Origin: Proteinivorax hydrogeniformans
GTDB lineage: Bacteria > Bacillota > Proteinivoracia > Proteinivoracales > Proteinivoracaceae
Reading direction: 5' to 3'
DNA: 64,000 nt
NCBI RefSeq assembly: GCF_040515995.1
Contig: NZ_CP159485.1
Location: forward strand, 868,001 to 932,000
Shown here: positions 4,105 through 32,364 of the stretch, piece after piece
How positions within the stretch are numbered: the stretch's first letter is position 1
Layout of the letters: every line of letters begins with the position of its first letter
Notes under the pieces: generated by a model
What the model was told of the DNA's origin: nothing
Database searches by the model: none
The model's input: the letters and a program-made list of their open reading frames with translations, nothing else
Program-made: the position numbers and the translations under genes

Positions 4105-4662
4105 TCAATTATAAAGCCCTTTTTCGCTCATGTAGTTATAAATTTCTTCTCCATGTTGTTGCTCTTCTTGTTGTATATGCTGTAAAACCTGTCTTACTTG
4201 GCTATTGCTCATTTCAAATACTGCCGTATCATAGTAGCTTGATACATACTTTTCTGTCATCAACATATCTTCAAGCAAGGATGAATCGGGATTGTTTTGT
4301 TGCTGGCTTTGACTGCTTTGCTGCGAGCCTTGACTACCTTGCTGTTGGGACATTTGACCACTTTGATTTTGTTGTCCCTGCATACCTTGCCCCTGTCCTT
4401 GTGATTGGCCCTGTTGCCCACTACCTTGTTGAGATTGCCCTTGTTGTCCACCGCCTTGTGCATTTTGAGGGATTTGTCCTTGTAGAAGCGTTTGCACACT
4501 ATCATAATGTTGTTGTTCCTTCTGAGCCAAACTTTGGAACAGTTGGGCAAGTTGAGGATCTTGTGCTTTTTGAGCATAGTTTGTGTATTTTTCTATACAC
4601 AGTTCTTCATGTTGTGATAGCTCATTTAGTAAGCTTTCCTCTTTCTGACTTAAAGTGATCAT
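4105..4662 (-). CDS. CotF-like spore coat protein with Gln-rich insert
   Basis: This 185-aa protein has two helical pieces of a CotF/ferritin-like fold. Residues 1-62 include NELSQHEELCIEKYTNYAQK, and residues ~131-185 include TEKYVSSYYDTAVFEMSN and QEEQQHGEEIYNYMSEKG. Between them lies ~65 residues made almost only of Gln, Gly and Ser (with Asn and Met). CotF proteins are made in the mother cell and placed in the spore coat. The typical family sequence has the two helical halves joined closely, so the low-complexity linker is unusual and may help cross-linking or assembly. The ATG has an AAGGAGGT site upstream. No sporulation-sigma promoter was confidently placed. Confidence 0.75.
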   Translation of the reverse strand: MITLSQKEESLLNELSQHEELCIEKYTNYAQKAQDPQLAQLFQSLAQKEQQHYDSVQTLLQGQIPQNAQGGGQQGQSQQGSGQQGQSQGQGQGMQGQQNQSGQMSQQQGSQGSQQSSQSQQQNNPDSSLLEDMLMTEKYVSSYYDTAVFEMSNSQVRQVLQHIQQEEQQHGEEIYNYMSEKGLYN

Positions 4663-10476: not shown

Positions 10477-10503
10477 TGAAACATTTTGGTCATAGTTATC
10501 GTC
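10477..10503 (+). promoter_or_regulatory. ECF-sigma-type promoter
   Basis: TGAAAC (10477-10482) and CGTC (10500-10503) are separated by 17 bp and followed by TATATATA. The arrangement matches ECF sigma promoters (AAC-containing -35, CGTC -10). It closely resembles the element at 30277-30302 ahead of this window's ECF sigma gene, which has a 16-bp spacer. Confidence 0.65.
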
Positions 10504-10542
10504 TATATATATAAATAGGGAGTTAAAATAGGGGGTAACTTT

Positions 10543-10887
10543 TTGAGAAAAAATATCTTTATGTTGGTGGGTGTTATAGGTATAGTAGCATTAGGGGTTA
10601 TATTATTTAATAATAGTGGATCGTGTCTTACTATAAATGTAGAAACAAATCAGGAAAGCACTGTGATATTTAATGGGAGAGTAGTAGGTAAAAACAGTGC
10701 ATCAATAGAGGTGGCTACAGGGGTAAATAGAATAGTGGTAAAAGCTACTGATGGCACCTATTGGGTAGGGCAGTGGGAGGCCAAGGAAGGAACAGCAGAT
10801 GAATTTTTGGATAATGTCAAAGCAACTGGCAATTATCACCCCAATCAGTCTAGAAAAGGCACACTAGATTTAGAAATAGTTTTTTAA
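10543..10887 (+). CDS. Membrane-anchored PEGA-like extracytoplasmic protein
   Basis: This 114-aa protein starts with TTG behind AGGGGGTAAC. Residues 5-22 (FMLVGVIGIVALGVILF) form a signal anchor, and the rest is an all-beta extracytoplasmic domain. The domain resembles PEGA repeats: an INVETN strand, then VIFNGRVVGKN, and WVGQWE near the end. The PEGA domain of the sigma-operon protein at 30895 contains the parallel sequence pattern (VFLDGEKIGKT, then IWQGQF). A Cys at about residue 28 is too far and lacks a lipobox. Function is unknown; the promoter suggests it belongs to the ECF regulon. It ends at a strong bidirectional terminator. Confidence 0.65.
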   Translation: MRKNIFMLVGVIGIVALGVILFNNSGSCLTINVETNQESTVIFNGRVVGKNSASIEVATGVNRIVVKATDGTYWVGQWEAKEGTADEFLDNVKATGNYHPNQSRKGTLDLEIVF

Positions 10888-10920: not shown

Positions 10921-10976
10921 ATATGAAAAGGGGGCTGTCTCTTAAAAAGAATAAGAGACGGCCCCCTTTTTCATAT
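10921..10976. terminator. Strong bidirectional terminator
   Basis: A long stem runs from AAAAGGGGG through GTCTCTTA with one bulged or mismatched position, then its complement GGCCCCCTTTT, with flanking ATATGA/TCATAT. It separates the PEGA-like gene (+) from the MATE gene (-). Confidence 0.9.
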
Positions 10977-30276: not shown

Positions 30277-30302
30277 TGAAACTTTTTTAGTTTTTTTACG
30301 TC
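30277..30302 (+). promoter_or_regulatory. ECF-sigma-type promoter of the sigma operon
   Basis: TGAAAC (30277-30282) and CGTC (30299-30302) are spaced by 16 bp and followed by TATATAAT. This fits ECF sigma promoters and suggests the sigma factor reads its own gene. Position 30331 onward is the coding start, so the leader would be about 20-25 nt. Confidence 0.75.
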
Positions 30303-30332
30303 TATATAATTGAAGGCAGGGAGGGAGAATGC

Positions 30333-30902
30333 TTGGAGGATCACATTTTAATTACTAGGTTTATGCATGGAGAACGGTCTGCCTTCATTGAGGTTTATGA
30401 AATGTACTTTCAAGATGTCTATAATTTTACTGCCTACTCTATCGGAGTAACCTCCTGTGAAGATGTAACTCAAGAAGTCTTTTTAAAAGTATATCGAAAA
30501 ATGGAATCATTTAAAGGGAAAAGCAGTATCAAAAGTTGGATTTTTAACATAGCTAGAAGAACGACTTATGACTATCACAGAAAGCACAAAAAGTGCTTAA
30601 ATGTAGATGACTACTACAATAAATTGATAACAACAATAACACCTGAAGATGTTTTTGAGTATAAGGAGGATTTAGAAGATGTTTTGCGAATGCTAGGGTC
30701 CTTAAAGCACGAGCAAAGAACGGCTATACTTTTAAGAAGATTACACGGTTTTAGCATTAAAGAAACTGCACGCATTATGGGTGTGAAAGAAAGTAAAGTG
30801 AAAACCCTACTTCATAGAGGTATGAAAAATCTAGATAAAGAAGTAGCAAAGAAAATTTCCTTAGAATGTTCTCCAAAGGGGGGAGTGAGCAAGTATGAAT
30901 AA
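30333..30902 (+). CDS. ECF-family RNA polymerase sigma factor
   Basis: This 189-aa sigma factor has region 2 (about residues 8-75: VYEMYFQDVYNFTAYSI, EDVTQEVFLKVYRKM, SWIFNIARRTTYDYHRKHKK) and region 4 (about 115-165: LKHEQRTAILLRRLHGF, then SIKETARIMGVKESKVKTLL, then HRGMKNLDKEV). Regions 1.1 and 3 are absent, as in ECF sigmas, which direct transcription of envelope and stress genes. The start is TTG with GGGAGGGAG upstream; a nearby ATG at 30329 is out of frame. The 3' end overlaps the partner gene by eight bases, so translation is coupled. Confidence 0.93.
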   Translation: MEDHILITRFMHGERSAFIEVYEMYFQDVYNFTAYSIGVTSCEDVTQEVFLKVYRKMESFKGKSSIKSWIFNIARRTTYDYHRKHKKCLNVDDYYNKLITTITPEDVFEYKEDLEDVLRMLGSLKHEQRTAILLRRLHGFSIKETARIMGVKESKVKTLLHRGMKNLDKEVAKKISLECSPKGGVSKYE

Positions 30903-32364
30903 ATCAAAAAGAAATTATAATAAAATATCAGAGCTTCCCGATGTTGAAATTCCACTAGGAACAAAAGAAAGAATGTTAAATAACATACTAGAGGAAAATG
31001 ATAGATATGAATGCTCATTTTTTCAAAGAATCTTCACTCACCTCAAACCTATCGCTTTTGCTGCATCAATGATATTTTTACTGTTTTTTGTCAATTCTAC
31101 AGTAGGTATAATACCCCAAAGTGGTATGGATGAGTTTGAGGTAAATATAGCGTCTAATGTAGAGGGAGCAGAAGTGTTTTTAGATGGAGAAAAAATAGGT
31201 AAAACCCCATTATCATATACTATGGATAAGGAAGATAAAACCAGAAAATTAACTGTAAGAAAGTCTGGATACCTAATATGGCAGGGTCAATTTGACAGCA
31301 AAGGGCCACAAAGCTTTGTGCAAACCTTTCATTCATCGGATGAGTTTTCGCTATTAGCTAGTCAAAATTCTGTGGATATTGAAAGTGGACTAAAGCCTGC
31401 CAACCCAAATTTAGTAAAGCTGCAGTCTAATACTGATAAAACCTCTGTAATTTTAAATAATATGTGGGTTGGCGAAGCTCCCATAACCCTTGAATTAAAA
31501 GATGATTATATGAACAAAGTAGAGCTAATAGCCCCTGATAGAGAAAAAATCACTTTAACTTTAACCACAGGCGATGAACTAGAAATGGAGCATAATGATG
31601 TTGCGCAACTAAGGTACTCTGATCATGGTTATTCCATACAAGTCAACCTTGAAGATTTATGGATACCTAAACATTCAATTTGGGTCAATGAAAATATAGT
31701 GATAAACTTTCTAAAGAAAAACAATGAGTACAAAGCTCAGGCTATAGACTTAGCAGCACAAACAATTAATGACATACCGGTATCTGAGACATTAGACCAT
31801 GTTATTCAAAGAGATAATTATACTGCGATAGACGAGGCAAGTATTTTGTTTGAGCAGAACAACCAATCCCTTTTAAATATCTCTGAGTTTATAGAGGATA
31901 GAGTTAACATTCACGAGGGTAGTTTCTTTAGGGTACAAAAGGACAAAGAAATTATTATCAAAGATGCAGTAAGCGGAAAAATTTATTCCGCTTTGGAAAA
32001 CAATAATTATAAAGTGTTAAACTCAGAAAGGGATGCTTTATATTTATGGTCAAAAGCAGAGCAGAAAATATTACTTTACTCCTTAAATGAAGATGATGTT
32101 AAAACATTTTCACTTAAAGGTTTTCCAGAGGAGTTAGACGGATTAACTAAAGTTCAACAGTATAAAGATATGTTGATTCTGTTAATTGGAGATGAAATGT
32201 ATTTTAAAGAGAACGGGGAATTTAGAAACCCTGAAGGTTTTAATAACATGAAACATTTCAGCTTAGATAAGAATGGGCAGCGACTTATAATTTTCATGAA
32301 AGAGAATTATATTAATATATGGGAGTATCATCTGGAAAAACAAAATTTCAAAAAACTTTACTAA
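30895..32364 (+). CDS. Putative transmembrane anti-sigma/sensor protein with PEGA domains
   Basis: This 489-aa protein is translationally coupled to the ECF sigma gene. It has a ~45-residue cytoplasmic N-terminus, one membrane helix (about residues 52-75, PIAFAASMIFLLFFVNSTVG), and a large extracytoplasmic region. That region begins with a PEGA domain (about 84-140: VNIASNVEGAEVFLDGEKIG and YLIWQGQF), then a second PEGA-like segment (about 170-220: ILNNMWVGEAPITLELK), then a long beta-rich part to the end. The N-terminus lacks the HxxxCxxC zinc anti-sigma motif, so anti-sigma action is inferred from gene order and topology. PEGA domains occur in surface proteins. Confidence 0.75.
   Translation: MNKSKRNYNKISELPDVEIPLGTKERMLNNILEENDRYECSFFQRIFTHLKPIAFAASMIFLLFFVNSTVGIIPQSGMDEFEVNIASNVEGAEVFLDGEKIGKTPLSYTMDKEDKTRKLTVRKSGYLIWQGQFDSKGPQSFVQTFHSSDEFSLLASQNSVDIESGLKPANPNLVKLQSNTDKTSVILNNMWVGEAPITLELKDDYMNKVELIAPDREKITLTLTTGDELEMEHNDVAQLRYSDHGYSIQVNLEDLWIPKHSIWVNENIVINFLKKNNEYKAQAIDLAAQTINDIPVSETLDHVIQRDNYTAIDEASILFEQNNQSLLNISEFIEDRVNIHEGSFFRVQKDKEIIIKDAVSGKIYSALENNNYKVLNSERDALYLWSKAEQKILLYSLNEDDVKTFSLKGFPEELDGLTKVQQYKDMLILLIGDEMYFKENGEFRNPEGFNNMKHFSLDKNGQRLIIFMKENYINIWEYHLEKQNFKKLY

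Follow-up and report, generated by a model that had tools for sequence, protein, structure and literature searches.

The window, by which we mean the whole stretch of DNA analysed, comprises 64,000 nt of the forward strand of Proteinivorax hydrogeniformans NZ_CP159485.1, from position 868,001 to 932,000 (assembly GCF_040515995.1). Five genomes of the family were compared: the source genome of 2.83 Mb (G000), a second species in the genus (G001), a third genome from another genus (G002), and two further family genomes (G003 and G004). Two loci of the window, 20 kb apart, carry the features listed below in window positions, with the basis in brackets.

10477..10509, plus strand: ECF-type promoter of the 10543 gene (motif, shuffles, conservation in G001 and G002)
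10543..10887, plus strand: gene for a 114-aa protein, TTG start (ORF list, profile comparisons, codon-position differences)
10925..10971, plus strand: strong intrinsic terminator, which ends the single-gene unit
30277..30309, plus strand: promoter of the sigma operon, TGAAAC-N16-CGTCTATATAA, a candidate autoregulatory site (motif, equivalents in G001-G004)
30333..30902, plus strand: gene for an ECF sigma factor of 189 aa with Sigma70 regions 2 and 4.2 (Pfam, alignment)
30895..32364, plus strand: gene for a putative anti-sigma factor of 489 aa (ORF list, Pfam, orthologue alignment)
31126..31362, plus strand: first PEGA domain (PEGA1) of the anti-sigma factor, with a W-x-G motif common to the 10543 protein

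At the first locus, the -35 element TGAAAC (10477-10482) is followed by a 17-nt spacer, the -10 element CGTC (10500-10503) and then TATATATA; the promoter can be read as TGAAAC-N17-CGTCTATATATA, and transcription of the unit is predicted to start near 10513. A ribosome-binding site lies between this promoter and the TTG-started frame, whose product has a hydrophobic anchor at the N-terminus followed by a PEGA-like domain on the extracytoplasmic side, at about residues 29-98. In front of the sigma operon, TGAAAC (30277-30282) is separated by 16 nt from CGTC (30299-30302), after which comes TATATAA; in its other reading this promoter is TGAAAC-N16-CGTCTATATA. A preliminary description of this DNA had placed TGAAAC-N17-CGTC ahead of the 114-aa gene and had pointed out that the two loci have their -35 and -10 elements in common, with spacers one base different in length. 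Both observations were correct, and the fuller motif occurs at these two positions only in the window. Elsewhere in the window, the minus strand at 4105-4662 encodes a 185-aa protein whose long middle is rich in Gln/Gly/Ser and flanked by two helical-looking parts; it looks coat-type (ORF list).

The sigma factor encoded at 30333 has regions 2 and 4 only (Pfam Sigma70_r2, 1e-12; Sigma70_r4_2, 9e-17), and its region 2.4 contains a DxxR motif (D80-R83) that is invariant in the sigma alignment. The anti-sigma gene begins (30895) before the sigma gene has ended. In its putative product a short, conserved N-terminus in the cytoplasm is followed by a single transmembrane segment, two PEGA domains and a C-terminal extracytoplasmic domain, and Pfam detects PEGA (PF08308) in two stretches above the curated cut-off, at 46.1 bits. 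NCBIfam returned no family for the 10543 protein and no specific family for the anti-sigma factor. The motif stands ahead of the sigma gene in all five genomes, with TGAAAC, TGTAAC or TGCAAC at -35; TGTAAC or TGCAAC is found in G002, G003 and G004, where CGTCTA is unchanged. As a separate observation, locus L162 of G002 (G002:C1:284856) holds another ECF-like sigma gene with TGAAAC-N17-CGTT upstream, a related yet different -10.

With one mismatch allowed, the loose pattern TGAAAC-N17-CGTC was found three times in the window versus 1.5 expected, which is unexceptional. The refined pattern TGAAACnTTT-N12,13-CGTCTA matched the window at 10477 and 30277 only, and had no match in 100 dinucleotide shuffles. 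For the whole G000 genome, where pattern matches were judged against a reversed-pattern control, TGAAACN15-18CGTCTA gave seven exact matches versus three for the reversed pattern. All seven sites, with spacers of 16 or 17 nt, are intergenic or, at most, reach into the final bases of the gene before them, and each has a same-strand gene downstream. According to Pfam, these genes encode an Ig-like exported protein (Big_14), two closely similar ABC ATPases (ABC_tran), the 10543 protein, the sigma operon, a LytR_cpsA_psr protein and a Glycos_transf_4 protein of the TagO/WecA type. In G001, the motif was found upstream of the sigma operon's orthologue, the 10543 orthologue, the Ig-like protein, the LCP protein and several ABC operons, and also at a MoxR/AAA operon and an LRR protein; G002, G003 and G004 have it at MoxR operons and large exported proteins as well. 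The small two-locus regulon that had been proposed is ruled out by the number of exact sites in the genome, seven, each ahead of a gene, and by the further sites in relatives. The targets would act on the wall, the membrane or exported proteins, as is typical of an envelope stress response.

The 30333 sigma factor is the probable reader of the motif: the motif is present at its own operon in 5/5 genomes, its DxxR is invariant, and a comparison of positions in G000 shows that none of the twelve TGAAACN15-18CGTC matches adjoins another sigma gene. Since each genome contains about 12 to 23 matches to sigma-70 region 2, these sites could be recognised by another sigma factor as well.

In all five family genomes we also noticed sites of the sigma motif followed within ~45-130 nt by an intrinsic-terminator-like hairpin (L005:1501-1640, that is G000:C1:960194 onward, and loci L054, L068, L070 and L063). 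These stretches share an AAAGGG near the 5' end, and in those read by eye a start codon is not evident. They are putative sigma-dependent small RNAs or leaders; a search of L005, L054, L068, L070 and L003 against Rfam gave no match.

The 10543 unit is conserved over a narrow range. The G001 orthologue is 51% identical and its promoter retains 41 of 46 bases together with the 17-base spacer. Differences between the G000 and G001 genes are distributed over the codon positions as 38/24/60, which indicates a real protein-coding gene under selection. In G002, an orthologue with 31% identity over the alignment lies beside the same MATE and CBS-domain neighbours, and a promoter, CGAAAC-N16-CGTCTATATA, is located 2 kb upstream of it. 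Between the two is a 1939-bp element (L151:931-2869), whose transposase we take by eye to be of the IS110 type. A second, identical copy (G002:C1:1360381-1362319) fixes the ends of the element at L151:931 and 2869 and thus leaves the promoter outside it; without the element, the promoter would stand directly ahead of the orthologue. Conservation in G001 and the layout in G002 therefore suggest that the link between promoter and gene is probably ancestral in the two genera and was broken by the insertion in G002. The search of relatives for the gene with its promoter was thus positive in G001 and, apart from the inserted element, in G002, while the gene is absent from G003 and G004, both of which keep the sigma operon. 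Among 398 genomes of the phylum the family consisted of its three known members in two genera, other matches reaching only E values of 1e-3 to 1e-2, and a profile scan of genome contigs with the family alignment revealed no relatives. From this narrow distribution and the two genomes with the sigma operon alone, we conclude that the 10543 gene is dispensable. The hydrophobic N-terminus has no clear lipobox in G000 and G001, and a lipobox, LLVGC, in G002.

The 10543 protein was also said to be a homologue of the anti-sigma sensor domain, on the basis of the paired peptides FNGRVVGKN / FLDGEKIGKT and WVGQW / WQGQF. These patterns are as described and lie in one collinear BLASTP alignment, in which 54 aa of the two proteins align with 24% identity at an E value of 8e-4 for this single pair. 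A profile comparison, which had been suggested along with this claim, gave a significant match: hhalign aligned the family of three 10543 orthologues with the whole family of five anti-sigma orthologues over 73 columns (E 2.3e-5, probability 76%). On carved domains, the E value was 5.1e-5 for PEGA1 (67% probability) and 8.1e-7 for PEGA2 (92%), and the control profiles from the anti-sigma N-terminus, the anti-sigma C-terminus and the sigma factor did not match the 10543 family. None of 200 column shuffles of PEGA1 reached the real score. Against the Pfam PEGA model (PF08308), however, the 10543 protein obtained 13.6 bits (E 0.065), and as this is below the cut-off of 20.8 we name its domain PEGA-like only, a name that the profile matches justify. 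Searches with the 10543-family profile ranked the anti-sigma PEGA domains highest, while in the reverse search the 10543 protein was outscored by several other PEGA domains as a match to anti-sigma PEGA1. Neither family profile retrieved anything convincing from the PDB, and AlphaFold, when modelling the 10543 protein by itself and together with the two PEGA domains of the window, reached pLDDT values of 43 and 42, too low for a usable fold. The similarity is supported but weak, and it does not establish the 10543 protein as a copy of the sensor domain.

We considered other ways to account for these data. That the shared promoter is due to chance and that a housekeeping sigma factor reads the 10543 gene seems very improbable: although the loose one-mismatch motif is no rarer in the window than chance predicts, the refined motif was absent from the shuffles, the 10543 promoter is conserved in G001 and G002, the six other exact sites in the genome each lie upstream of a gene, and no sigma-70-type hexamer pair was found on the plus strand upstream of 10543. 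It is unlikely, too, that the resemblance to PEGA is superficial and the 10543 gene encodes an unrelated exported beta protein of small size, so that membership of the regulon would be the sole true link between the two loci. A Pfam score far under the cut-off, a family of three known members and a fold without confidence in AlphaFold would suit such a protein, but the family-level hhalign match, the 92% probability against the second PEGA domain and the shuffles of PEGA1 speak against it.

A ligand-sharing or feedback role of the PEGA-like domain is possible. In the form of a feedback decoy, the 10543 protein would be a copy of the anti-sigma sensor domain, competing for its ligand or pairing with the PEGA domains of the anti-sigma factor, in an extracytoplasmic loop that would tune or switch off the response. 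The W-x-G after the PEGA core points this way, being invariant in the 10543 family (3/3) and in anti-sigma PEGA1 (5/5) and found in 0/26 fragments at other PEGA matches, several of which are poor or out-of-frame readings; the ranking of the anti-sigma PEGA domains by the 10543-family profile and the same promoter type at both loci are likewise consistent with it. Nevertheless, the 10543 gene is missing from two of the five family genomes although the sigma/anti-sigma pair is there, and the reverse search scores other PEGA domains above the 10543 protein; we consider the feedback decoy rather improbable.

The explanation that we prefer, with a probability of roughly 0.72, is that the 30333 sigma factor controls an ECF regulon for cell-envelope stress to which the 10543 gene belongs; the system would be autoregulated and kept in check by the PEGA-bearing anti-sigma factor. 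The best reading of the regulon is an ordinary-looking one of the SigM/SigX/SigW kind with at least seven promoters. At rest, the membrane-spanning 30895 protein, with its two outer PEGA domains, would bind the sigma factor, and a disturbance of the envelope would set it free. The freed sigma factor would then transcribe six or more further units besides its own operon from TGAAAC-N16/17-CGTCTA promoters; these units include genes for wall-polymer enzymes (LytR-CpsA-Psr, TagO/WecA type), ABC transporters, the Ig-like exported protein and the 10543 protein. Most likely, this last protein, once exported and anchored in the membrane, has a protective or structural function on the outside, where its PEGA-like domain probably binds a wall or surface component of the kind sensed by the anti-sigma ectodomain. 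The promoter, its conservation at the family level, the other regulon sites and the profile similarity are read from sequence; from these we infer the dependence of the 10543 promoter on the 30333 sigma factor, the anti-sigma activity of the 30895 protein including sigma binding, the inducing signal of envelope stress and the role of the PEGA-like domain.

This reading offers a testable, family-wide ECF regulon for little-studied bacteria, with a PEGA-bearing anti-sigma factor tied in. To our knowledge, the ligands of PEGA domains are poorly known, and if sensor and output use their W-x-G PEGA-like domains to bind one and the same surface ligand, the pair would help to tell what these domains recognise. 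Our literature search found no paper joining a PEGA domain, an anti-sigma factor and an ECF sigma factor.

By analogy, the 30277 operon would work like Tt-RpoE1/Tt-TolB and the SigM/SigX/SigW group of Bacillus subtilis. The promoters of the latter have a TGAAAC-type -35 and a CGTC/CGTA-type -10. As here, their operons contain the anti-sigma factor and their targets include wall and transport genes, whereas the anti-sigma ectodomains are different, and we know of no PEGA output in these regulons. Their common -10 is named in the work on Tt-RpoE1 of Thermoanaerobacter tengcongensis (PMC3397946). There too, the ECF sigma gene is directly followed by the gene of a one-TM anti-sigma factor, Tt-TolB, whose N-terminus in the cytoplasm is short and whose outer part is large, as in the 30895 protein, and the autoregulated promoter has a 16-nt spacer and CGTC followed by TATA (PMC3397946). 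The DxxR in region 2.4 is also shared, and in Tt-RpoE1 it reads the -12G of CGTC; in contrast, the -35 is tGTTAC instead of TGAAAC, and the outer domain of Tt-TolB is annotated as TolB (PMC3397946). The preliminary description knew of no system that pairs a sensor domain with a secreted-side relative. A precedent exists, since RsgI6 of Clostridium thermocellum carries a GH10 ectodomain that recurs in exported products of its regulon, GH10 xylanases, sigma-I6 promoters including those of xyn10Z and xyn10Y (PMC4711584). SigI differs in not being an ECF factor, in its AAA / CGWA promoters and in that the domains in common are carbohydrate-related and their substrates known (PMC4711584). The ECF sigma profiles and the TGAAAC/CGTC promoter rule out SigI/RsgI membership of the 30333 system; the likeness is an analogy only, and in this sense the echo of an anti-sigma ectodomain in a regulon product is already known from SigI6/RsgI6.
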